A stretch of 64,000 nucleotides of DNA from Chloroflexota bacterium (GTDB lineage Bacteria; Chloroflexota; JAJPGV01), in the NCBI GenBank assembly GCA_021325635.1, contig JAJPGV010000034.1, positions 124,745 through 188,744 on the forward strand, read 5' to 3'. Each line of letters starts with the position of its first letter. Positions within the stretch are counted from its first letter, which is position 1. This document shows positions 3,944 through 62,554 of the stretch, one piece after another. The position numbers and the translations under genes were made by a program. The notes under the pieces are model-generated. The model was given only the letters and a program-made list of their open reading frames with translations. It searched no databases and was not told where the DNA came from.

Positions 3944-5125
3944 CTAGGCGCCAGTCTTCACGGCGTTCGCCAGCTCCCGCTTGGCCTGCTCCAGCAGCTG
4001 TGGCTGTCGCAGCAGATCGATGGTCGTGAAAGCCATGGCCTTGGCGGCCTCGAAGGCGGCCTCGTGGGCGCGGGGCGAAGCGGCGGCAGCGGTGAATTCC
4101 GAAGTGTGGTTGGGGATATGGTCCGCGATCTTGAACAGCGGCTGGATCGAGGGGATCAGCCAGCTGACGTTGCCGACGTCGGATGAGCCGAAGCCCTGAT
4201 CGGATTCCATCGGACAGTCGATACCCAATTGTTCCATTGCGCCGGCATACAAACCGGCCAGCGTAGGATTGCTCAGGATCGTTTCGTAACGCGGCGAGAC
4301 TTGATGCCATTCGAACGTGCAGCCGGTGGCCAGCGCCGCGGCCTCGAAGCAGCGCCGCACTTTATCCATCAGCTCATCGAGATAGCTGTTGCTGGCCGCA
4401 CGAATCATGAACGAGCCCTGGCTGTACTCGGGCACGATATTGGGTGCATCGCCGCCGTGGCGGATGATGCCGTGGATGCGGGCGCTGGGGAGGATGTGCT
4501 GCCGCAGAGCGTCGATGTGGTTGAAGCTGAGGATCATGGCGTTGAGCGCGTTGACGCCCTTTTCCGGGCTGCCCGCGGCGTGCGCCGCCTTGCCGTGAAA
4601 TTCAACGTCATAGTGCTCACAGGCCAGAGCCTCCGTCTTCACCACACTGTGAGAGCTGGGATGCACCAGCAGCGTCGCTTCGACGCCGGCCAGCCCGCCG
4701 CGCTGCAGCATGATGACCTTGCCGCCGCCACCCTCCTCCGCCGGCGTCCCCACGATGGCAACCCTGCCGCGAAGCCGGTCGAGCACCGCCTGCAGTCCGA
4801 CCGCGGCCGCTATGGGCGCCATGGCCATGAGGTTATGCCCGCAGGCGTGGCCGATCTCCGGCAGCGCGTCGTACTCGCACAGCAACGCGACGACTGGTCC
4901 GTCACTCGCCGCCGGCAGCGTCGCTCTCCAAGCTGTGGCGAGCTCGCAGACGCCGGTTTCCGTCGGCCAGCCTAGCCGCCGCGTCGCCGCGGTCAGCGTT
5001 TCCACGGCGCGAAACTCCTCGAAGGCCAGCTCCGGCGTGGCGTGGATGGCGCTGCTCAGAGCGACGAGCTCATCGCGGTGGCTGTCGATCGCCTCGGCAG
5101 CCAGGCGCTTCAGCTCGTCGTTCAT
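3944..5125 (-). CDS. M20-family amidohydrolase / dipeptidase (AbgB/PM20D2-like)
   Basis: A zinc-dependent amide or dipeptide hydrolase of about 393 residues. Metal-site motifs are intact: CEYDALPEIGHACGHN (metal Asp/His region in the style of PM20D2 and AbgB), then GTPAEEGGGGKV with the catalytic Glu, and KAAHAAGSPEKGVNAL at the lid domain. C-terminal SDQGFGSSDVGNVSW carries the bridging region. The frame is open further upstream to 5314, but that part is the antisense of holB coding sequence; homology starts at ATG 5125 (MNDELKRLA). It lies 10 bp after holB and one base before the methyltransferase. The natural substrate may be an N-acyl or aminobenzoyl amino acid; not determined. Confidence 0.85.
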   Translation of the reverse strand: MNDELKRLAAEAIDSHRDELVALSSAIHATPELAFEEFRAVETLTAATRRLGWPTETGVCELATAWRATLPAASDGPVVALLCEYDALPEIGHACGHNLMAMAPIAAAVGLQAVLDRLRGRVAIVGTPAEEGGGGKVIMLQRGGLAGVEATLLVHPSSHSVVKTEALACEHYDVEFHGKAAHAAGSPEKGVNALNAMILSFNHIDALRQHILPSARIHGIIRHGGDAPNIVPEYSQGSFMIRAASNSYLDELMDKVRRCFEAAALATGCTFEWHQVSPRYETILSNPTLAGLYAGAMEQLGIDCPMESDQGFGSSDVGNVSWLIPSIQPLFKIADHIPNHTSEFTAAAASPRAHEAAFEAAKAMAFTTIDLLRQPQLLEQAKRELANAVKTGA

Positions 5126-48368: not shown

Positions 48369-48650
48369 ACAGCGACACCCACTGGTACATCATGAGCACG
48401 AACGTCATCAGCACGCCAATCTGCGCCCAGTGCTCCGTGCCTGCGGAGGCCTCCGGCCCGTCCCAAGTAGTCCAGCAATGAGTCGAGCTGGCGGAAGTCT
48501 TCCGGGCATGGCTCCATCCGGAAGTCGCCCTCGGCAACGTAACGGGGCTTCTTGGCAGCCACGTGTGCGGCGCTGAGCAGGATGCCCATGTCAGCCACGG
48601 TCATGCCGACCGCGCTGCGACGGATGCAGGCAGAATGTCTGAGCGTGGGA
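48369..48650. other. Gap before tRNA-Gly, possible gene remnant
   Basis: 282 bp. On the minus strand one frame reads VADMGILLSAAHVAAKKPRYVAEGDF, and a second frame further on reads a hydrophobic segment (IGVLMTFVLMMYQWVSLFIW). Joined by a frameshift they would give a small one-helix membrane protein. The evidence is too weak to call a gene. Confidence 0.2.
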
Positions 48651-48722
48651 GCGGGTGACGCGGCTCGAACGCGCGACATTCTGCTTGGGAAGCAGACACT
48701 CTGCCAACTGAGTTACACCCGC
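48651..48722 (-). tRNA. tRNA-Gly (anticodon CCC)
   Basis: On the minus strand a 72-nt cloverleaf: acceptor 7 bp GCGGGTG/CACCCGC, D arm with TTGG, anticodon stem TCTGC/GCAGA with loop TTCCCAA and anticodon CCC at 48687-48689, and T arm with loop TTCGAGC. CCA is not encoded in full. It reads GGG codons. It marks the edge between the GC-rich chromosome and the less GC-rich island to the right. Confidence 0.93.
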
Positions 48723-48847: not shown

Positions 48848-50770
48848 CTAGTCACCGCTTGCAAGCTGGAAGGCCTTCTCGAAGGCACGCCCTAACCACA
48901 CCTCCAGACGCCGGAAATGATTCTCGAGCACCGTGCCCGAGACGAGACTGGAGATGGTTAACACAAACAGCGCAACCTGGAGGGCGGTAAGCACGTACCG
49001 GAAACGGCCAGCTTCCCAGTCAGGGAGTCCCCAAGGAAATGTCGAGAGTAACCCTACACCCAGCAGCGCGACCGCTAGGATGCGGACGAGCCACGTGCAT
49101 GGCCGTGCTAGCCTTGTCGCCCGTTGCGCCCGCCGGGTCAGTCGGTCCGCCTCGCGGGTTGCAACGTCTACCGCTCGCTGCTCAGCCTGTTGACGACGAA
49201 CTGCCTCGGCATCACGGTCCTCGCGCAACTCCCCTTCAATTCTTCGCCGGACGCTTTCCAACACCTCGGCCACGGTGGCGTCCGTGAACGCTGCGTCGTC
49301 ACCTTGCGTTAGCTCCATCAGAGCGGATCTGGCAAAGGACGAATATCGCAAAAGGAAGTAGTCATCCGCGGCACGCACCTTCGGATCTGTCTGAATGCGA
49401 TCAATAGCTTGAAGGTAGCGGCGCATCAGTGATTGATCGGGCTGCATAGCCGCGAAGGCATCAGCGATGATTCTCTTGCGTGGCAAGTTGGGGGCGGCTA
49501 ATGGTCGTTTCAGCCACAATACCGTGGTCAAGGTAGTGTCCGAGATCACAGGCGGCACTGCCTCCGGCGGTGCAGTTCCGTAGAACCAGCTATTGACGGC
49601 CCGGGCGAGTGCTCGATTCGTGGTGACAAACAATGCCTTGCATGTCTCGATGCTGCCGTATTGCTGACCCCGCCTCAGCTGCATGATCGCGGCGATGGAG
49701 TCAACGTCACACGCAACCGGATCTTGACTTCGATAAGAGATCCTCTCGCGCAGGACTTGTTCAAGCTCTGCTTCGTCAATCTGATACTCGTGGATTCGTT
49801 GTGGCCGGTCACCAACTTTTATGCGATGTGCGTCAAGGTTGCGTTCGAGGCCCGCGGCGAACAGCTCTATCTCAGCCGGTGAATAACCTGTCTGGATGAA
49901 GTGCTCTAGGCTCGGGCCGTACGCATCGTGCAAATTGCCCCGCCGAATAAGGTTGGCCGATGATAGGAGCGCTCCCCTCATCTCGTTAACCGTGTGTTGG
50001 AAACAGCAAAGGTCAGCACCGGTCTCATAAAGCAGATCGAGAAGTTCGACACAAGGCTCCTGTTTGGCCTGCCCATCGTAGCCGAGCGCCGACATAAGAA
50101 ACGGCGTATCGAAATAGAGCGTCGTGCGACGAAACTTTTGGCGTGCGGCACTGGGATCAGGCAAAAACAGAGCGTTCGCCAGCATGTTGCCTTGTACCAC
50201 CGTGGTTAGTGATTCAAAGTCTGCAGCATGAGTTTGTGAGAGATGATCTGCGTAGGCTGCAACCAGATAACGCGCATTTTTGACTCGTGGTGCTCTCAAC
50301 GGGATGAGACTTTGCCCCGCGGTCGCACGGAGAAGGTCTACCTGATTCTCGTTCAGATAGTCGTCAAGAGCCGTCTCCGCATCTTCTGCGGTCAGTTCGA
50401 GCTGGTACGACTCACGACAAAATCGGCGTAGCCCGTCTACAAGCGTCTCGTGCATTCGCACGACTGTTTGCTGGGCGGTATGGAAATTTAGCTGAGCGAG
50501 CTTCGATTCGTTCCGATAATAGGCGCCGTGATTCAGGTTAAGGTAGCCACGTTTCTGCACTCGAACTAGGATCGCTTTGACGGCGTGCTGAGGCAGGCGC
50601 AGCTGGAATTGACGTTCTAATTGGCGCTGTACGTCCCCTAGGGTGACCGGTTCGTGATCAAGCTCGCGTATGCAATCAGCTAGGAAAGGCACGAAGTTTT
50701 CGACGTAGTCCTTTTGCTGATTCCAATTGACTTGCAAAATTGCCAAACTCGTTATTGCCGGGGTGATCAA
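48848..50770 (-). CDS. Membrane-anchored PIN-like nuclease candidate with N-terminal winged helix
   Basis: 640 residues, starting at TTG 50770 (start uncertain). Residues 30-90 look like a winged helix (TLGDVQRQLERQF, VQKRGYLNL). Residues 215-400 follow the PIN-fold residue plan: Asp221 in LYFDTPFLM, Glu263 in HTVNEMRGAL, Asp355/357 in CDVDSIAAIM and Asn385 in FVTTNRAL. A charged coiled coil (510-570) leads to two hydrophobic helices at about 575-595 and 605-625. The product would be a membrane-tethered RNase-like protein. Catalysis is an inference from acidic residue order. It stands alone near the island edge, 125 bp from the tRNA. Confidence 0.65.
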   Translation of the reverse strand: MITPAITSLAILQVNWNQQKDYVENFVPFLADCIRELDHEPVTLGDVQRQLERQFQLRLPQHAVKAILVRVQKRGYLNLNHGAYYRNESKLAQLNFHTAQQTVVRMHETLVDGLRRFCRESYQLELTAEDAETALDDYLNENQVDLLRATAGQSLIPLRAPRVKNARYLVAAYADHLSQTHAADFESLTTVVQGNMLANALFLPDPSAARQKFRRTTLYFDTPFLMSALGYDGQAKQEPCVELLDLLYETGADLCCFQHTVNEMRGALLSSANLIRRGNLHDAYGPSLEHFIQTGYSPAEIELFAAGLERNLDAHRIKVGDRPQRIHEYQIDEAELEQVLRERISYRSQDPVACDVDSIAAIMQLRRGQQYGSIETCKALFVTTNRALARAVNSWFYGTAPPEAVPPVISDTTLTTVLWLKRPLAAPNLPRKRIIADAFAAMQPDQSLMRRYLQAIDRIQTDPKVRAADDYFLLRYSSFARSALMELTQGDDAAFTDATVAEVLESVRRRIEGELREDRDAEAVRRQQAEQRAVDVATREADRLTRRAQRATRLARPCTWLVRILAVALLGVGLLSTFPWGLPDWEAGRFRYVLTALQVALFVLTISSLVSGTVLENHFRRLEVWLGRAFEKAFQLASGD

Positions 50771-51315: not shown

Positions 51316-51774
51316 CTAGATGATTCGTCCCGGGTTTCTTAAGAGCGCCCGGGCTGTGAGATTCGTGGCCAGCTTAGCGTAGGTCCTGGACCAGTGCTCT
51401 CTCGATTTCGCGTGCCGCCTGGCGAGGCTAGCAATGCTTTCGCTGCGTAGGAATGCGTCGAGCGTAGCCTTCAGTTTGCGTTCCCTGGCGCTATCTCCCA
51501 GTCGGTTCACCAAGTCTGTCACCGTTTCGACGAGCACAGATTGAACGGCAAGTCCTTCCCTGAATAACTCGGTGCGCGCATCCCACCGCTCCGCCACCTG
51601 CGGAAGACAAACTAGCTCAGTGATTTCCGACAGCCTAACTGGGTCTTGCATGGCCCTGAGCCCCTCACCGACGGCCGCGTGAAACTGTGGTGTTAACGCC
51701 CGTTGGCGGGTTCGTACGCGTGTCTCGACCAGAGGCTTTCGACTGGCGACGTGCCCTTGGCCTCGCCCATTCAT
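51316..51774 (-). CDS. Unknown protein with C-terminal helix-turn-helix-like segment
   Basis: 152 residues; I do not recognise the family. The second half, rich in Leu and Arg (LKATLDAFLRSESIASLARRHAKSREHWSRTY), has the length and residue spacing of a sigma-like helix-turn-helix. The first half is charged and helical (EITELVCLPQVAERWDARTELF). Its ATG overlaps the stop of the preceding membrane gene (ATGA), so it is the last gene of the FtsZ-like operon. It could be a regulator of that operon. Confidence 0.65.
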   Translation of the reverse strand: MNGRGQGHVASRKPLVETRVRTRQRALTPQFHAAVGEGLRAMQDPVRLSEITELVCLPQVAERWDARTELFREGLAVQSVLVETVTDLVNRLGDSARERKLKATLDAFLRSESIASLARRHAKSREHWSRTYAKLATNLTARALLRNPGRII

Positions 51775-52268
51775 CCCTCTACCGTCCTCGGCGTAGCCAT
51801 CGGACTAGGTGGCTCCCAGCTGCCAGTCGGCCACCAGGTGTACGGCCCAAGCACATCCTCTAATGTCGGTTCGGTCAGAAGGGGTGCCGGAGCCTCAATG
51901 GGCAGTGTCTCCGAAACCAACAAATTGATCATCAGAAGCCCAGCGCCAACCATTGACACTGCCCACACCACAACGAAGAGCCCCGCCCGGGTGTATGACG
52001 GCATTTGCATCAGCCAGATCCCGAGCCCAACGAGCACCACACAGGTGATAAGGCCTACCCAGAGCTGTGGCACTGCGCGAGTCGGTATCGAATTTCTCCT
52101 TTTGGCGACCCCTTTGACTCCTGCGACTGGAACACCAAGCGCGAAGACCAAAACTCCAATCCCCAGGAGCAAAAAACTCCAGACAATCTTCACTACTTCC
52201 GCTAGCACCAGCCCGACGGCCCCCTCCGCCGACCAATCGGAGCTGAAGCCGGAGTGTCGGCTAGCCAT
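51771..52268 (-). CDS. Unknown membrane protein
   Basis: About 165 residues from ATG 52268 (the frame is open to 52307). Three hydrophobic helices: AEVVKIVWSFLLLGIGVLVFALG, LWVGLITCVVLVGLGIWLMQM and GLFVVVWAVSMVGAGLLMINLLV, then a Pro/Thr/Trp-rich tail. No family recognised. It overlaps the gene before it by about 8 bp and the one after it by 4 bp, so all are translated together. Confidence 0.65.
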   Translation of the reverse strand: MASRHSGFSSDWSAEGAVGLVLAEVVKIVWSFLLLGIGVLVFALGVPVAGVKGVAKRRNSIPTRAVPQLWVGLITCVVLVGLGIWLMQMPSYTRAGLFVVVWAVSMVGAGLLMINLLVSETLPIEAPAPLLTEPTLEDVLGPYTWWPTGSWEPPSPMATPRTVEG

Positions 52269-53052
52269 TTCCGGAGTCACTAACAAGAAGCGGGTCCGAA
52301 GTCCCATCCGCTACCAAGTTGCAGTCCCCATAGCCCAGATCGTGAAGATCAACACATGCTTCTAAATGGGCGAGGTGATAGCGGGTTGCGATCGCTTGAG
52401 CCGTGGACAAAAGCATTACGCCTTCTTGGCGCCGCGTTGCCGAATCAGCGAACGCGAGGGCACGGCCCCAGTTCCGCAGGGTGGCGTAGTGAAATTCGAT
52501 CGCGTCGCTGCCTGCAGAGCCCTGTTGCCATGCGTCTTCCCACAAGGCCGCGGCAAAAGCCCAAGATCCTTCGTCATAAGCTCGTTTGGCCATTTGGATT
52601 GAAGAAAACTGCTCGCTTGGCGGGACGCCATATCGGCTAGCTTGCTGCTTGATGGCTGCCCAGCGTCCCGCAGACGCACGAGCACCGTCTTCGCCAGCTC
52701 GCGCCGAATCAAGCACGGTCTGAACAGACGCCAGATACCAAGTCCTGGCGAGATCAGCATGAGCCTGGCTGCACTGATTAGGGTAATCTAAACCTGCACT
52801 GCTGACAGAAACGGCAAGGCTAAATTGGGCCGTCGATGCAAGCTGGGATGCTTGTCGAAGCTCATCAGGCACTTTGCACCCTCCAGAGCGGTTGATGGCA
52901 ATCGCTGTTAAAAGCGCCGTCATCAATGAGCACGCCCCGGCGATCTGTAGCCAGCCGGGGAATTTCCAGTCGTTGGGCCTAGCGACTTCCCGATTCTCTC
53001 CAGGCTGCCTCTTGGCTGCTTCGGCGTGACCAAGTCGACGAAGATCTTCCAT
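52261..53052 (-). CDS. Single-pass membrane protein with helical-repeat soluble part
   Basis: 263 residues: a charged cytoplasmic start (EDLRRLGHAEAAKRQ), one hydrophobic helix WLQIAGACSLMTALLTAIAI at 34-53, then about 205 residues of helical, Ala-rich sequence that resembles TPR/Sel1 arrays (MAKRAYDEGSWAFAAALWEDAWQQGS). No family named. It starts two bases after the stop of the FtsZ-like gene. It could link the FtsZ-like protein to the envelope, an inference from position and topology. Confidence 0.65.
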   Translation of the reverse strand: MEDLRRLGHAEAAKRQPGENREVARPNDWKFPGWLQIAGACSLMTALLTAIAINRSGGCKVPDELRQASQLASTAQFSLAVSVSSAGLDYPNQCSQAHADLARTWYLASVQTVLDSARAGEDGARASAGRWAAIKQQASRYGVPPSEQFSSIQMAKRAYDEGSWAFAAALWEDAWQQGSAGSDAIEFHYATLRNWGRALAFADSATRRQEGVMLLSTAQAIATRYHLAHLEACVDLHDLGYGDCNLVADGTSDPLLVSDSGNG

Positions 53053-53054
53053 CG

Positions 53055-54428
53055 TTAGACTGCCTCCTCCTGGTCATCGACGGAACGCCGTCTCCAACCA
53101 ATCTCCTCGTCTTCCAGGCCACTCTCGCTGGCGCCCAGCGCCTCTAGTGCCGCCTCTGGATGCGCCAAAGTTTGAAGTGTCACCACCACGAGCGGGCACC
53201 GAGGTGCAGTAGGGTCAACAAGCGTGGGAATGGACGCAAAGACAAGGCTGCGATCGCATTTGTCGAATCCCATGAGCTCCCGAGCCTGAACCAAGTTGTC
53301 GACGTGCAGCCGCAACCGGTCCGGGAGGATTGGCGACATGATCAGGTCATACGTGCAGGTACCGGGCGCAACATCGCCCTGTCCGACACCTCCAAGAGAG
53401 TGCCCCTCGGGATCGTCGAGAGTTTCAAACGCGTTAACCAGCCCGGCGTCAACCGCATCAGCTGGAGTGAAATATTGAGGTGGGACGTCAGGATGATCTG
53501 GCAACACGGGATAGGCCGGTAAATTCTGATAGGAGGTCTGAATAGCGGCCCACCATGACCCGTCCGCAAAGGCGTGATACAGGGCGTTATTAGCCTCAAT
53601 CGGAGCGTCGGCTTCATCCGATCCTGCCGCGAGGACAGCAAGGCCAGTCACTAGCCCGGCGTCGTTCAGTACTGGATTGGCAGCGTTATCCGCCAATACC
53701 ACCCCATCCAATCCCGCCACCTTGAGCTGTTCGATGACGTATTTGGCACGCCGCCTCAGATTGCTTATCGAAGGCAGGACCAAGGCAGCATAGGACTTGG
53801 TGTTCTTGAAGAGGCGAGACAACTCCTTAATCGAAAACACCCCCAGGGGCGCAGATCCGCCAAAACCGCCGAACATGAGGATGACTGACGGCTCGCGGCC
53901 AAAATTTCTCTTCAAATAAAGGTCCCGAGCGGCTTGAATGCCGCCGAGGAGTGCAGGTCCCCAGCGGCCAATCAGATTAAGCACATGTTCGTACTTGCGA
54001 TTGCCGAGGCCACCAGATAATGAGGCGCTCTTAACGAAGACAATTCGATTCCGGAAGACGTCAGCCACTTGAGCTTCGAACCGCTGCCGCCAGCGAGCAT
54101 CGAGCTCGACCAGAAGAACCACACCAACCAGATGGGCTTTACCGGCGGCGTTCAGTTCCTCAAGCCAGCGCGATGCCAATTTAAGGCCCACTGTGCCCTG
54201 GCCGATCACGAAAAACGGCCCTGGTCCTGCTTCCTGCGGCGAGGACTCGTATTTGATGAGATCGCTGCTGCCCGGGGGCCGCGCTTGCATCGCAAGCTCT
54301 AACAACTGCTTGTTTTTACGACGTTCCTCCCGGTTCTGACCCTCTCGGGTCAGCTTGAGAGTCCCACCGATACCAACTGCCGCCAATGCCGTAGACATTG
54401 CCACCACCGGAAAAGGCTCTGAAATCAC
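53055..54428 (-). CDS. Divergent FtsZ/tubulin-superfamily-like protein
   Basis: 457 residues. A hydrophobic N-terminal segment (PVVAMSTALAAVGIGGTL) precedes a Rossmann-like start FFVIGQGTVGLKLASRW at 72-88. At 180-255 the order of elements copies FtsZ: SVILMFGGFGGSAPLGV (tubulin signature G-G-G-T-G-T/S-G-A-A-P changed to GGFGGSAP), VLPSISNLRRRAKYVIEQL, then GLDGVVLADNAANPV at the position of FtsZ D-x-L-I-V-I-P-N. A near-perfect Shine-Dalgarno AAGGAGGTGA sits in front of GTG 54428. First gene of a four-gene operon with two membrane proteins. GTP binding is likely but unproven. Confidence 0.62.
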   Translation of the reverse strand: MISEPFPVVAMSTALAAVGIGGTLKLTREGQNREERRKNKQLLELAMQARPPGSSDLIKYESSPQEAGPGPFFVIGQGTVGLKLASRWLEELNAAGKAHLVGVVLLVELDARWRQRFEAQVADVFRNRIVFVKSASLSGGLGNRKYEHVLNLIGRWGPALLGGIQAARDLYLKRNFGREPSVILMFGGFGGSAPLGVFSIKELSRLFKNTKSYAALVLPSISNLRRRAKYVIEQLKVAGLDGVVLADNAANPVLNDAGLVTGLAVLAAGSDEADAPIEANNALYHAFADGSWWAAIQTSYQNLPAYPVLPDHPDVPPQYFTPADAVDAGLVNAFETLDDPEGHSLGGVGQGDVAPGTCTYDLIMSPILPDRLRLHVDNLVQARELMGFDKCDRSLVFASIPTLVDPTAPRCPLVVVTLQTLAHPEAALEALGASESGLEDEEIGWRRRSVDDQEEAV

Positions 54429-54561: not shown

Positions 54562-54903
54562 TTAAGCTGCCGCCAACCGGCCTTCGAATCCTTCGTCAAA
54601 ACAGAAGCGACAACCGACAAGTCGATAACCGAGGCCGTGAAGACTAACGAGAATGCGGGGGGCAGACGGCGTGTCTTCAAAGAGGAGCCTAAGCTGATGG
54701 GCAACCTTTTTTGGATCGCCTATCTGAAAACCGTCTTTCAGGGCCGCGTGCGAGACAAGGCCCCCGCGAGCAGCGAAATGCGCACTGAGAAAGGCAACCT
54801 CGCTACGTGTCAAGTAGCTCTCGGTGTGCTCGCTGTAAACCACGGTGGCATCATCGATGTACACGCTCACTCCGTTAGGCAGGTCAATGCGTCGTTTGGA
54901 CAT
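54562..54903 (-). CDS. Stand-alone winged-helix DNA-binding regulator (OmpR/PhoB C-terminal type)
   Basis: 113 residues. YLTRSEVAFLSAHFAARGGLVSHAALKDGF, then a recognition-helix region KKVAHQLRLLFED and the closing ILVSLHGLGYRLVG match the trans_reg_C winged helix, with the terminal G-x-G-Y-R-L hairpin. There is no receiver domain. It lies between the FtsZ-like operon and the receiver-LuxR gene and could regulate either. A second frame across the same bases (54435-54704) is a shadow. Confidence 0.75.
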   Translation of the reverse strand: MSKRRIDLPNGVSVYIDDATVVYSEHTESYLTRSEVAFLSAHFAARGGLVSHAALKDGFQIGDPKKVAHQLRLLFEDTPSAPRILVSLHGLGYRLVGCRFCFDEGFEGRLAAA

Positions 54904-54964: not shown

Positions 54965-56146
54965 TTATGCCGCAGCAAGCGGTGACCCACCTGCGGGGTA
55001 GGGCTGTCGCGGTCCATCGGACCGTCGCAGTGGCACAACGGTCAGATTTGAAACCGTTGGCTCGCCGCCACCCAAGGCCTTGAGAGCCACTTGAGCCGCA
55101 GGGGCACCTCGTAGGTTCAGCTTCTTCCGAGCACCCGCAAGCCGGCGCTCGACAGCGGCGGGTGAGAGACTCAAGCAGTGGGCGACCTCGCGAGAGCTGT
55201 GGCCTTGGCGAACTAGCTCAAGAACCTCGAGCTGTCTATTCGTAAGACTGTTAACCGGGGCTTGCTGCTTAAGGTGAGCACCTACCACCGTTATCTGCTC
55301 AGCGTCAGTCGCAACCAAGCAAACCTCGGCCTCGGGAGCTGCCGGCACCCCAGTTGTAAACAGTCGAGGCTGTGCATAAATAGTGCCTGCAAGGAACTGC
55401 TCCATCCCAGTACGCATGTGATCACGAGCCATACGAGCAACTCGTCGACCGTCAAATTCGGTTAGGTTTCTTCCCTGCATTAGAGGAATGAGCTTTAATT
55501 CGCGGTGGTCGCTCGGCTGTAGCTGGCTAGGTTCGTCGGCCGCGCTGGCTGCAGGGCTTACGTATCGGCCCCCTTTCAAAATGAGCTTGATACAGAGGGC
55601 GAATTCGTTCATCGTGTCCGGTCGGATGCTGGGCTTGTCGAAGTAACTGACCCCAAGCTCCAGTAGTGGGTGAACCACACGTGGCTCCCAGAGCTTGGAA
55701 GCGACCCCGATTTTCCGCTTCCGATTTAGGGACATTTGCGCCAGGATCCCGGCGACCCCACCTGCGGGGTCGGAGATATCGCCAGTAAACTGATCGAAAA
55801 CCTTGCCGAGATCGTGCAAAATGAAAACCGGGTTCACAATCTCGACTTTGGCGAGTGCCTCGGGTACGGAGTAGCACCACGTAGTGCGCAGTTGGAAACC
55901 ATTCGCCAAAGCAGCCTTCTTAAGCAAGCCGACATCTAGAAAGTGCGGATCGTCATCGACGATCATCATCTCGTAATGAGGAAGCCAGATTCCGCCAGCT
56001 GATACTTCCTGGACCGCATTAGTGGATGACCGCGACGAACAGGAGGCTGGCGCGATGGAAGGCATGCTTGGTGCAGGACTGGGTTGACTGCTATCCTGCC
56101 GGGGTTGCCGATTGGTCTCGATTGGAAATGAAATTAGGTTGCCCAT
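54965..56146 (-). CDS. Receiver-domain protein with C-terminal LuxR helix-turn-helix
   Basis: 393 residues. A Ser/Pro-rich first 50 residues precede a receiver: MMIVDDDPHF (acidic pocket 64-66), Asp112 in FILHDLGKV as likely phospho-acceptor, and Lys171 in SYFDKPSI. After a linker, LTNRQLEVLELVRQGHSSREVAHCLSLSPAAVERRLAGARKKL is a GerE/LuxR helix-turn-helix. GGAGAAG precedes ATG 56146. No histidine kinase is adjacent. The receiver is divergent, so phosphorylation needs proof. The tail is Pro/Gly-rich. Confidence 0.78.
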   Translation of the reverse strand: MGNLISFPIETNRQPRQDSSQPSPAPSMPSIAPASCSSRSSTNAVQEVSAGGIWLPHYEMMIVDDDPHFLDVGLLKKAALANGFQLRTTWCYSVPEALAKVEIVNPVFILHDLGKVFDQFTGDISDPAGGVAGILAQMSLNRKRKIGVASKLWEPRVVHPLLELGVSYFDKPSIRPDTMNEFALCIKLILKGGRYVSPAASAADEPSQLQPSDHRELKLIPLMQGRNLTEFDGRRVARMARDHMRTGMEQFLAGTIYAQPRLFTTGVPAAPEAEVCLVATDAEQITVVGAHLKQQAPVNSLTNRQLEVLELVRQGHSSREVAHCLSLSPAAVERRLAGARKKLNLRGAPAAQVALKALGGGEPTVSNLTVVPLRRSDGPRQPYPAGGSPLAAA

Positions 56147-57513: not shown

Positions 57514-58938
57514 CTACCGGTCCTTGATCGGCACCGATCTGAACACGAGCTGCCCTTGCGCCGACATTGGCCGTTGCTCGTTTGTGTTCTCTTCACCACC
57601 AGAGCGAGGTCGCATTAGCTGCGCTGCATACTGGTCGGTCAAAGCCCGCAACTCGCTGACAGAAGCTTTTCTTGGTGGAAACTTGAGCGTCCGGATTTTT
57701 GCTGTCCTATTGGCGACCTTCACGTATGCCTCTCGAGGTCTGAGCTCTTCAAGCGCCCTGGCCCAGCCTTCGTGCGTCTCCTGCACATTGAAGTACAACG
57801 GGTGAGTTCGATCTACCTGGTCCGGATCGAGAACCTCATGCTTGACCAAGTAGGGGTCGAATTGCCCGAAGCGCGGCGCCGCCCAAACAGCGTCACCACG
57901 ACCGAGCCTGAAAGCTACATCAATGCAGTTTCCGAGTGCGCCCTGAAGCCGCTGACTGAGCTGAGTCCAGGATTGGTGAGCCAGCGTACAGTAAAGCCCA
58001 AACTTCCTGGTCAGGCTGAGCATTCGTGCGAGCGCCTCCTCGCTTTGCGCGCTAAACATCGAGAACTCATCGATGATCAAGTGGTATTGACGGCGCGCTT
58101 CTTCTGGCACATCGGCTCGGGACAAGGCTGCCATCTCATATCCCACCGTGATTAGGCAGCCCAGAAATCGCTGGCTGTCCTCGTCTAGCCCACCTAGATT
58201 GCAGATCAGGCTCACGCCCCTATCCATCAGGTCGCGAAAATTGAGGGCGTTTTCGCGCTGCCCAAGCGAGTATCTAAGAGCCGGGCTGAACGTCAAAAGG
58301 AACGCCCGCCGGAGAGTGCTCTCGATAAGCATCGGCGCTTCTTTCCCCCAACGATCGAACCGGGATAGGAAAAAGTCCACTACAACGGAGTCAGTGACGT
58401 TTTGGAGCAGTCCATCTCTGAAGGCTTTGTCGGTGAGCAGTCGCGGCAATTCGGTTAGAGGCAAATGGTTCTGTACAAGAACTAGAGTCGCGGCCAGCAT
58501 TATGTTTTCGAAATTGGGGGCTGAACCGTCACCCAAAGCGGGCCACGCCCGCTTGCACACCTCGGCAATGTTTCTAGCCACAGTGTGGTCGTCATAGGGC
58601 TGATTGAGAACGTTAAACGGCAGAGCACGGTCGCTTCGGGCGAAGTCGACATACAGTAAACGGTCAAACGCTTGCGGATGGTCGAAGAACTTTGTGTCGT
58701 AAAGCAGCCCGAGGATGTTGAGCGCCAGGTCGCTGTGCGGGTCAATCAGAGCAACGCCAACGCCTTGATTGAGCAGCTGGACAAACATGCTTGCCATGAG
58801 CATCGACTTCCCCATGCCGGTGACCCCGAGGAGGTGCTTATGCGTTGCCACCTCGGCCGGGCCAAGTGCGTACTGGCTAAAGATCGGTCCGTAGCTGCCC
58901 AGCACCAGCTTGGGCCTCATCGGAGACCAAATACTCAT
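57514..58938 (-). CDS. TraD/VirD4- or HerA-like DNA-transfer ATPase
   Basis: 474 residues. Walker A is LLGVTGMGKSML (Lys44), strand-2 ALIDPHSDLA fits the conjugation-type ATPases, Walker B is YHLIIDEFSMF near residue 292, and TLAHQSWTQL is the sensor strand (usually Q at its end). FNVLNQP is also typical of type IV secretion ATPases of plasmids and ICEs. There is no N-terminal membrane anchor. It is coupled (ATGA overlap) to the replication-relaxation gene upstream. Role: moving DNA-protein complexes, by family. Confidence 0.82.
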   Translation of the reverse strand: MSIWSPMRPKLVLGSYGPIFSQYALGPAEVATHKHLLGVTGMGKSMLMASMFVQLLNQGVGVALIDPHSDLALNILGLLYDTKFFDHPQAFDRLLYVDFARSDRALPFNVLNQPYDDHTVARNIAEVCKRAWPALGDGSAPNFENIMLAATLVLVQNHLPLTELPRLLTDKAFRDGLLQNVTDSVVVDFFLSRFDRWGKEAPMLIESTLRRAFLLTFSPALRYSLGQRENALNFRDLMDRGVSLICNLGGLDEDSQRFLGCLITVGYEMAALSRADVPEEARRQYHLIIDEFSMFSAQSEEALARMLSLTRKFGLYCTLAHQSWTQLSQRLQGALGNCIDVAFRLGRGDAVWAAPRFGQFDPYLVKHEVLDPDQVDRTHPLYFNVQETHEGWARALEELRPREAYVKVANRTAKIRTLKFPPRKASVSELRALTDQYAAQLMRPRSGGEENTNEQRPMSAQGQLVFRSVPIKDR

Positions 58939-59816
58939 GCTGCCTGAGAGCGAACCCCCTCCAGGAGCGGCCGGCCCGTCTTGTCAAACGGCCGAAACCA
59001 AACCGGATGGAGAAAGAGCGCTCGAGGCGACGCAGTCTCAGGATTAGCGCCAGTGAAACGGAAAAGATCCCGCTGGTCCTGGCTCGCTTCCTTCAACTCG
59101 GCCTCGGTCCAGCGCATCAACTCCCAAAGTCGCTTCTCTCCAGGAGTGGCCACTACAGCAAACGTCAGGGAGGCTGTCTCAAAGCGCTGCTGATATGGTC
59201 CAGAAGCCGCAGCAAGAAGGGCGCGCACCTTCTGCCGCCAAACTTTCTGCTCATAGGTTCCGCGGTCGATCTCTAGCGATATGCAGACTTGGTGGGTACC
59301 GTTGACGGCGAAGTCAAGGTAACCATCAGGAATGACTGCTAGCTTGCGACCGTCACCTTCAAGCACGGTCATTGGCTCCCGCTTCAGGTCCCGTTCATGG
59401 GCCATTCGGCGTATCACGAACTCAGGTGAGGTGCGACACAGCAGCGCCGCAGCTATCAGGACCGAGTTCACGGCGAGGGTATGTGCCAGAAAAAGGTACG
59501 AGTGCGCCCGCTCCTCCACTGGACGATAGCGGCCCACCTGCTTGCCAGATGCCGACAAATAGGACAGGCCTTTGCTGGCTAATCGATAAACAGATGGGGC
59601 TGACCCGTACCGCGATGGCCGGGGCAAAAACAGTCGTTGGCAGTACTTGCCGTCCGAGAGCTCTTTGAGTTTGGTCTGAACAAAGGTTAAGGAGGAGGGA
59701 CTGTAAAGGAGGCGGCAGAGTTGCTGCGCCGAGAGGTAGTGGTAGGTGGCCAGAGCAAAGAGAATGTTTTGCTCACCAATCCCTACCCGCAGATTTTGGG
59801 TCTTCTTGGGCAGCAT
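58935..59816 (-). CDS. Replication-relaxation family protein
   Basis: 293 residues. NILFALATYHYLSAQQLCRLLYSPSS begins a winged helix, then YRLASKGLSYLSA and SYLFLAHTLAVNSVLIAAALL, the pattern of Replic_Relax (PF13814) proteins found on plasmids and conjugative elements of Gram-positive and related bacteria. VIPDGYLDFAVNG and LEIDRGTYEQKVWRQKVRALL would supply the conserved acidic residues of the nuclease-like part. No ribosome site precedes ATG 59816. It is coupled with the ATPase, suggesting joint action at DNA transfer or replication. Confidence 0.78.
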   Translation of the reverse strand: MLPKKTQNLRVGIGEQNILFALATYHYLSAQQLCRLLYSPSSLTFVQTKLKELSDGKYCQRLFLPRPSRYGSAPSVYRLASKGLSYLSASGKQVGRYRPVEERAHSYLFLAHTLAVNSVLIAAALLCRTSPEFVIRRMAHERDLKREPMTVLEGDGRKLAVIPDGYLDFAVNGTHQVCISLEIDRGTYEQKVWRQKVRALLAAASGPYQQRFETASLTFAVVATPGEKRLWELMRWTEAELKEASQDQRDLFRFTGANPETASPRALFLHPVWFRPFDKTGRPLLEGVRSQAA

Positions 59817-60545: not shown

Positions 60546-61238
60546 TTAGCGCTTAATACTCCGGGGGAACACAGAATAGCACGATATGCCGTTTGGAAAG
60601 CCACGGACGTTCGGAAGCGCTTTTTGACTAACCCGGAACGACTGACGCTCAAGCACCCGGTAAGCTTCCTCAGTAATTAGGATTTCCCCGCCCTGCGCGG
60701 ACTGTGCTAAGCGGAACGTTTTCAGAACATCCTCACCAATCCCGGTACTTGGCAAGTGTTGTAGGCTTGTGAACCGCCCATAAGGAATCTCGCCAAACGT
60801 AAGTCCCGCAACCAGGTCCATTCCTTGAAAGTCTTTCCGCAGGGCTGGTTTGGCGTGGCCTAACTCACGGGCTATGGTATCGCACCAGCGCCTAAACCGT
60901 TTCCTCATATCAGCTGCTGCATGGATAGCGGCGCTCAGCGCACCACTGTTAAGTGAGACCGGCTGACCTTTGATATTGATATCGCACAAAAACGCAAGGA
61001 AGCCGTCACCCAGGAAGGCATTAATATGGTAGGCCGTTTTGTCAGAAGTCCAGGCCCTGAGGGATTCGTCCGTTAAATCGCAGAAGCCACTGAGGAAACG
61101 TCGGTGATCCTCATCCGGACATTGCTGAAGGGCTTGGGTCGATCCTCGGATGTCTGTTACCAGAACGACTAATGAATCTCTTTTGACCTCTGGCCGAAAG
61201 GCGTCTGGAACACTTGGTGCTTCAGTAGGCGACTGCAT
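60546..61238 (-). CDS. Class III nucleotide cyclase
   Basis: 230 residues. The cyclase homology domain is plain: LVVLVTDIRGSTQAL with metal Asp29, INAFLGDGFLAFL with Asp78, GLTFGEIPYGRF, and STGIGEDVLKTFRLAQSAQGGEILITEEAY. In the last motif the transition-state Asn (V-N-x-x-x-R) is replaced by Leu172, while Arg176 remains. So base specificity and activity are open; adenylate, guanylate or pyrimidine product cannot be told. ATG 61238 overlaps the stop of the partner gene by one base (TAATG). No membrane segment. Confidence 0.8.
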   Translation of the reverse strand: MQSPTEAPSVPDAFRPEVKRDSLVVLVTDIRGSTQALQQCPDEDHRRFLSGFCDLTDESLRAWTSDKTAYHINAFLGDGFLAFLCDINIKGQPVSLNSGALSAAIHAAADMRKRFRRWCDTIARELGHAKPALRKDFQGMDLVAGLTFGEIPYGRFTSLQHLPSTGIGEDVLKTFRLAQSAQGGEILITEEAYRVLERQSFRVSQKALPNVRGFPNGISCYSVFPRSIKR

Positions 61239-62554
61239 TACCCGTGGTAGGGTACTAGTCTTTTTCGTTCGTCTAGAGCTAGCAATTCATCAGGAAACAA
61301 GAACTCTGGATCGTCGTCCGCCTTTGACAGCTCTTCGATCAGGGTCGCGTACTCTTTGCTAGTTGTCACGAGTGGCATTGTAACGTCTGTATCACGAGAC
61401 CATTCTTCAGCGCGAGTCGCCGACGCTTCGAACAACAACTTATGGTACTCGGCGAGCTCCTGGTAGCGCTCTGGAGACACCGCTGTAAGATTCATAATTC
61501 GGCGTGTTCGCATTAACTCCATCGGCCGGTGAGGGAACTCAGTCCACAGCCGGTATCCCGCCAACTCAGACTCGACCACCCTGAAGTGATGTTCAGGCCC
61601 TCTGAAAGCACGATGGTAAATCGCGTGACCCCGCTGAGGCAATCGCAATAGCTCGTTAACTCCTTTATCGTCCACAAGCACTACCGGGCCAGTAACTGCC
61701 CGGATTTGGGCATTCTTTCGCGTTACCTCTTCAATGGCGTCCAAAACCTGCGGGTGGTTATATATAGTCGGATCAGCTTCGCCGCAGTAAATCCGCACCT
61801 TCCCGTTTGGCCTTACAGCCCTGAGATCCGAGGCTAAGGCCCCGACGGCATCGGTAACTGGCACCCACTCGGGAGAACCAGACAGCTGGCCAGGATTGAA
61901 CTCGACGCCCCCCATATGTTGAATGTACGCTTGCTCGCTATACCTGTCAACCAGCAACTTGCGCTCACGCACGAATAGCTGTCTGGTCGGGTCATCGCAG
62001 GGGCGATAAGTGGCAATGAATCCAACTGCCTTTGCACCTTCAATAACTCGATAAACATCAACCTCTGTCTCAAGAAACGTCATATCGGTTACTAGTGCTG
62101 GCGGCTGTAGAGTCAAGCGGTATGACCACTCAAAGTCCGGGCTCTCTTGGGCAGCATCGTATAAACGACGTAGATCTGCGTTCTTGCGGAAACCTTCAAC
62201 CATAGGTGCCGCTATAACCGGATAGAGCCTCGCCAATTTCTTGAGTACGGCAAACTTCTTTGCAAAGAATGCAAGATTGCGTTCAATGGGAATCCGGTCC
62301 AAGCAACGCAAGATAACGCCGAAGACATGGATACCTAAGAGATTGTCAGCAGCAAGCTCATCAGACTGCGGGTCGAGGGCTCCCCACATCCAAAAGGCGA
62401 GCAGATTAGCAGCTCGAATCAGTCCATCCTCGGCAAAAAACCAGGCGGGATAGGCCTGGCCCAGCGACTCCCTCTCCTGTGGTGAACCAATTTGGGGATA
62501 CGACCGAAAGGGATCGAGCGGCCCGTAGGAAAGGGAGGGTACGTTGTTGCTCAC
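61238..62554 (-). CDS. PAS-like plus PLD-like protein, partner of the nucleotide cyclase
   Basis: 438 residues; not assigned to a named family. Residues 35-200 start with YPAWFFAEDGLIRAANLLAFWMWG, the look of a MmyB/PAS ligand-binding domain. Residues 250-350, with KVRIYCGEADPTIYNHPQVLDAI, AVTGPVVLVDDKGV and HHFRVVES, follow the strand-helix order of phospholipase-D-like proteins but lack H-x-K motifs. A helical, charged C-terminus follows (RYQELAEYHKLLFEASATRAEEW). First gene of the operon with the cyclase. It could be the sensor or the effector for the nucleotide. Confidence 0.65.
   Translation of the reverse strand: MSNNVPSLSYGPLDPFRSYPQIGSPQERESLGQAYPAWFFAEDGLIRAANLLAFWMWGALDPQSDELAADNLLGIHVFGVILRCLDRIPIERNLAFFAKKFAVLKKLARLYPVIAAPMVEGFRKNADLRRLYDAAQESPDFEWSYRLTLQPPALVTDMTFLETEVDVYRVIEGAKAVGFIATYRPCDDPTRQLFVRERKLLVDRYSEQAYIQHMGGVEFNPGQLSGSPEWVPVTDAVGALASDLRAVRPNGKVRIYCGEADPTIYNHPQVLDAIEEVTRKNAQIRAVTGPVVLVDDKGVNELLRLPQRGHAIYHRAFRGPEHHFRVVESELAGYRLWTEFPHRPMELMRTRRIMNLTAVSPERYQELAEYHKLLFEASATRAEEWSRDTDVTMPLVTTSKEYATLIEELSKADDDPEFLFPDELLALDERKRLVPYHG

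Follow-up and report, generated by a model that had tools for sequence, protein, structure and literature searches.

The window that we analysed, a 64,000-nucleotide stretch of a Chloroflexota genome, contains a four-gene operon whose first gene encodes a new and highly divergent branch of the tubulin/FtsZ superfamily. Only two members of this branch are known. The modelling and profile evidence supports well the assignment of this protein (the leader) to the tubulin/FtsZ fold, as a very distant relative. Both members are encoded in integrative elements, and the branch is borne by a family of tRNA-integrating mobile elements, probably of the Chloroflexota. From gene context only, and with no experiment, we give a probability of about one half to the proposal that the leader is a tubulin-superfamily protein that is tethered to the membrane, probably weakened as an enzyme, and part of the apparatus by which the element transfers or handles its DNA.

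The ORF listing places the four genes in a tight operon on the minus strand, from 54428 down to 51316, just where the original prediction had put them. The leader (53055..54428, minus strand; 457 amino acids), which was identified from its ORF, its homologue, and fold evidence, starts with GTG, preceded by a strong ribosome-binding site (AAGGAGGTGA). It has a weakly hydrophobic N-terminus (residues 6–24, the one N-terminal hydrophobic segment by hydropathy, KD 1.66), which had been noticed before; a modelled tubulin-type core at about 69–247; and an unresolved C-terminal part. After a gap of 2 nt comes gene 2 (52261..53052, minus strand), for a 263-amino-acid membrane protein with a transmembrane segment at residues 35–53 and a cysteine-containing C-terminal domain. 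Its single pass agrees with the original prediction; the helical repeats also proposed for it have no family support. Gene 3 (51771..52307, minus strand) overlaps gene 2 by 47 nt and encodes a 178-amino-acid protein with three transmembrane segments by hydropathy, as expected. The last gene of the operon, gene 4 (51316..51774, minus strand), overlaps gene 3 by 4 nt (ATGA) and encodes a soluble protein of 152 amino acids, which had been called HTH-like; we found no family support for this.

None of the four proteins (0/4) has a significant match in Pfam, PHROGs, NCBIfam, or PADLOC: the best of the marginal family entries has E = 0.008, far under the curated cut-offs. Just upstream of the operon is a possible regulator of 113 amino acids (54562..54903, minus strand) with a resemblance to the winged-helix family Trans_reg_C that is below the cut-off (E = 0.06). 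Further upstream, the family scan identified a LuxR-type (GerE) regulator of 393 amino acids (54965..56146, minus strand). The leader is present in a single copy in its own genome. That genome also has two ordinary ftsZ genes (L006 G000:C58 and L007 G000:C23), one of them on a 4.6-kb contig; this could be a true paralogue or contamination.

The operon lies in a genuine mobile island, as originally proposed. The GC content, about 65% up to 48–49 kb, is about 56% from there on and increases again after about 39 kb. The left attachment repeat (48684..48722; 39 bp) is the 5' half, or first 39 nt, of a tRNA-Gly(CCC) gene at 48648–48722. A perfect copy is found beyond the window, at 87708–87746 (window numbering carried into the contig); a tyrosine recombinase is about 70 bp away. 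From repeat to repeat, the element is 39,024 bp (~39 kb). Its ends are direct repeats at a tRNA gene, and it has a site-specific recombinase. The repeat extends up to the anticodon and the element lies on the 5' side of the tRNA-Gly gene (window 48684–48722; L003 ~4452–4490); the 3' end of a tRNA gene is the more usual attachment repeat.

The element also encodes a relaxase/replication protein and a coupling-type ATPase. These are a 293-amino-acid Replic_Relax (replication-relaxation) protein (58935..59816, minus strand; PF13814) and a 474-amino-acid DNA-pumping ATPase of the TraG/HerA type (57514..58938, minus strand; matches to DUF87/TrwB), and their genes overlap. The first three genes of the operon (the trio) are downstream of this pair on the same strand, with four genes between. 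Other genes of the element encode an SSB, an AAA_22 ATPase with an adjoining small gene, a second XerC/D-like recombinase, a nucleotide-cyclase-type protein, and regulators. We did not recognise any type IV secretion channel genes among the element genes that were scanned, which did not include every ORF. By the left attachment site is a 640-amino-acid protein (48848–50770, minus strand) with two C-terminal transmembrane segments, a PIN-like stretch identified by eye, and no family match. The gene for the nucleotide-cyclase-type protein (60546–61238, minus strand; PF00211, above the cut-off) overlaps that of a 438-amino-acid protein of unknown family (61238–62554, minus strand).

A scan for relatives of the Replic_Relax protein led to SJ813, a metagenome-assembled genome labelled Dehalococcoidia, which encodes a 55% identical Replic_Relax protein and a close homologue of the ATPase. 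We found no relative of the leader in the SJ813 genome; such elements therefore do not all need the trio. Across 393 genomes from the class of SJ813, the only clear match to the leader was in one genome (G407; E = 3e-21, 29% identity over residues 68–421).

The G407 locus (L171) is another integrative element. On one strand, it encodes in order the tubulin-like protein (484 amino acids), a single-pass protein (254 amino acids), a three-TM protein (153 amino acids), an ATPase (807 amino acids), a Replic_Relax protein (330 amino acids), and a tyrosine recombinase, after which comes a tRNA-Met gene. The order tubulin-like, single-pass, three-TM is common to both elements, and at L171 the TraG/HerA-type ATPase, Replic_Relax, and the integrase come directly next. 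The three-TM protein of the window and that of L171 are homologues (Smith-Waterman score of 73, versus a maximum of 62 in 500 shuffles) and have a common C-terminal motif, E..LEDxLxP. The single-pass proteins (263 amino acids in the window, 254 at L171) are alike in position and topology, with no detectable sequence similarity. Gene 4 has no counterpart at L171. Of the four genes that were expected to be conserved together, three recur and the fourth does not. This recurrence in a second integrative element indicates that the operon is more than a chance arrangement. Further proteins common to the two elements are the two recombinases and one of 218 amino acids. This last protein (218–220 amino acids; L002:4632–5294 and L214:217–873) is conserved at E = 1e-54 and has no family match. 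A Kelch-like repeat protein is near the second XerC/D-like recombinase in both elements (L002:10857–12068; L214:5719–7119, the latter identified by eye). Directly upstream of the tubulin-like operon of G407 is what appears by eye to be an IS21-like pair of transposase and ATPase (L171:10958–13269). Within the contig, we found no second copy of the tRNA-Met region that would mark the other end of the G407 element, and that end was not located.

With the two leaders in hand, we could examine the fold. In hhalign comparisons, the two-sequence profile matched Tubulin_2 (score 34.1, E = 0.0023, probability 13%), with T1 and T4 in register, and FtsZ (score 26.8, E = 0.016, probability 3%), with T4 to T6 in register. 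Because these probabilities are low, we ran controls. The Tubulin_2 and FtsZ scores were matched neither by any of 300 profiles with shuffled columns nor by any of 69 pairs of real homologous ORFs that had diverged to a similar degree. We also used AlphaFold2, without templates and with the two homologous sequences alone as input. In the resulting model, residues 71–220 mostly have pLDDT of 65–86 (49–54 for residues 131–150) and form alternating strands and helices. Overall, the mean pLDDT is just 47, and the C-terminal half is unresolved. When this model was compared to the PDB, all 50 of the matches listed were to chains of the tubulin superfamily, with probability 1.00 and E = 1e-6 to 1.5e-5; among viral proteins, the top matches that have names were phage tubulins or FtsZ. 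The TM-scores are modest (~0.3–0.4), as the model is good for only part of the protein. The leader sequence by itself gave a model with a mean pLDDT of 34 and no fold match below 1e-3, to tubulins or otherwise. The original prediction of an FtsZ/tubulin-like leader is supported by the two-sequence model, except that helix H7 falls in the part with low confidence: beyond residue ~220, where H7 and the C-terminal domain would lie, the model is not reliable.

The GGFGGSAP stretch at residues 187–194, which had been pointed out as a degenerate tubulin signature, is present, and its GGFGGSA is in register with T4 in the profile alignments. It does not fit the T4 signature GGGTG[ST]G, and neither does ASPGGHT at the aligned place in the homologue. 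T5 Arg225 and T6 Asn248 are identical in both members, and to judge from these residues nucleotide binding may persist. Reading either sequence, we did not find the T7 catalytic motif NxDxxD. Because no such motif was seen, and because the glycine loops differ between the members, the leader probably does not hydrolyse GTP in the manner of FtsZ. Because the signature loop is degenerate, no T7 motif is visible, and H7 and the C-terminal domain are unresolved, we claim membership in the superfamily at the level of the fold only.

Could the leader instead be some other Rossmann-type protein, whose motifs resemble those of tubulins by accident? The homologue lacks the T4 signature, the sub-threshold BLAST matches of the leader are unrelated proteins, and neither member matches the Pfam tubulin families. 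Single-sequence HMM searches also reach neither FtsZ nor Tubulin_2: with HMMs built from 31 FtsZ and 24 Tubulin_2 sequences, the leader scores no better than shuffles. But the profile and the model made from the two sequences agree in indicating the tubulin superfamily, and the shuffled, real-protein, and single-sequence controls are all negative. We consider an accidental resemblance to be very improbable.

Other searches for relatives did not extend the family. Full-length searches with the leader covered at most ~790 genomes, in sets that partly overlap and are nearly all from one phylum; the label of SJ813, and related genomes that are small and have several FtsZ genes, suggest that this is the Chloroflexota. 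The leader has no match in the plasmid or phage collections, and tblastn of plasmids and phages found no relatives of it. Scans of GTDB contigs and IMG/VR with peptide patterns, which detect close relatives only, did not find any either. No further member was found in ~80 neighbourhoods of related ATPases, or in the order of G407, where the search covered a single genome. Searching the PDB sequences, phmmer with the leader gave chance hits only, and the two-member profile had no match. Sub-threshold BLAST matches in related genomes (at residues 163–209 and 50–125 of the leader) were to ORFs of FtsZ-like length; when read out, these were of the aminotransferase type and the inositol-phosphate-synthase type, so we attribute the matches to chance. 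Among the ATPase neighbourhoods, a 117-amino-acid fragment at L197 was an unconvincing candidate (E = 0.02–0.05). Of 201 genomes sampled from the phylum, 21 have Tubulin_2 (FtsZl1) genes (L087–L110). The set of genes had been thought to be undescribed, and the empty results from the family libraries agree with this. Also, we found no description in the literature of a tubulin-like protein in the transfer region of an integrative element (most subscription journals were outside this search).

Among known families, the best profile match of the two-sequence alignment is the FtsZ-like 1 family (FtsZl1, or Tubulin_2, PF13809; Makarova and Koonin 2010, PMC2875224), and the E-value of 0.0023 suggests a distant relationship. 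Like FtsZl1, the leader has a divergent tubulin-superfamily core, is linked to membrane proteins, and co-occurs with ordinary FtsZ. In contrast, the members described here (457–484 amino acids) lack a long coiled coil and do not match PF13809; we did not recognise vWA, kinase, or OmpA proteins among the neighbours scanned; and the leader lies by Replic_Relax and ATPase genes in a mobile element. Phage tubulins such as PhuZ are among the top viral fold matches of the model, but they are only ~12–14% identical to the leader and occur in a phage context. We know of no membrane partners of PhuZ or other phage tubulins.

Type III partition systems (tubRZ/tubC, with TubY) also have a tubulin-superfamily protein on a mobile element. 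If the leader were TubZ-like, its filaments would move the excised or replicating element, the 113-amino-acid protein would be the TubR-like adaptor, and the membrane proteins would be anchors. Tubulin-superfamily partition proteins are known on plasmids, the small putative DNA-binding gene directly upstream of the operon has a weak, sub-threshold match to winged-helix proteins, and type III systems involve lipid membranes, via TubY (PMC7762940). However, there is no tubC-like repeat array near the operon, only scattered two-copy repeats, and the contig with the G407 element has ParA and a small RHH-like gene, which makes partition less likely. In addition, the leader has no relative on plasmids or phages and no sequence match to TubZ, the operon encodes membrane partners, and TubZ requires GTP hydrolysis, for which no T7 motif is visible. 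On balance, partition by the leader seems unlikely.

Still less likely is that the leader interacts with host FtsZ and delays division during excision, replication, or transfer of the element. The genome does encode ordinary FtsZ (two matches), with which an FtsZ-like partner could interfere, and the gene is carried by a mobile element. But the leader is too distant from FtsZ in sequence for co-polymerisation to be predicted, and simple interference would not need a pair of dedicated membrane partners. We also have little confidence that the operon is no more than a passenger of the element, as a module for defence or as other cargo. Defence genes are frequent cargo of mobile elements, and a membrane-linked NTPase-like protein would fit that style, but there is no PADLOC match, and in the second element the trio is conserved beside transfer genes, not in a variable cargo slot. 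All three of these explanations (partition as by TubZ, interference with host division, and defence) have less support than a role in DNA transfer or handling. Of the functions suggested in the original prediction, then, defence is without support and partition has some evidence against it, while the context favours DNA transfer or handling.

How might a tubulin-like protein contribute to DNA transfer or handling? We infer that the leader's N-terminal segment and the membrane partners would keep it at the cytoplasmic membrane, and that it would form a scaffold or a short polymer that organises a membrane site. There, the Replic_Relax protein and the ATPase would process and move the element's DNA. 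The elements are comparable in gene economy to the AICEs, the integrative and conjugative elements of actinomycetes (PMC3218068), which also integrate at tRNA genes by means of a tyrosine recombinase, encode a replication-type protein and a DNA-pumping ATPase, and have no recognised type IV secretion channel. However, the ATPase of AICEs is of the FtsK/SpoIIIE type instead of the TraG/HerA type, and the elements described here add the trio of tubulin-like and membrane proteins. More tentatively, we speculate that these proteins are an undescribed, membrane-anchored family within the tubulin superfamily and structural components of a DNA-transfer machine, in which a tubulin-type scaffold replaces part of the usual secretion channel of Chloroflexota integrative elements; this is possible, but we would not presume it. 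For transfer, the four genes between the trio and the ATPase pair in the window weaken the association. For membrane tethering, both leaders begin with a hydrophobic stretch followed by basic residues, but this stretch is only weakly hydrophobic, especially in the G407 protein.

Very divergent relatives of tubulin escape the current family models, yet two sequences can be enough to recognise them. Tubulin-superfamily proteins act in cell division, in cytoskeletons, in plasmid partition, and in the positioning of phage replication compartments. If our proposal is correct, then DNA transfer or handling would join this list. It would also help to show how DNA might be moved by elements that have no recognisable type IV secretion channel, in a phylum whose mobile elements have been little studied.
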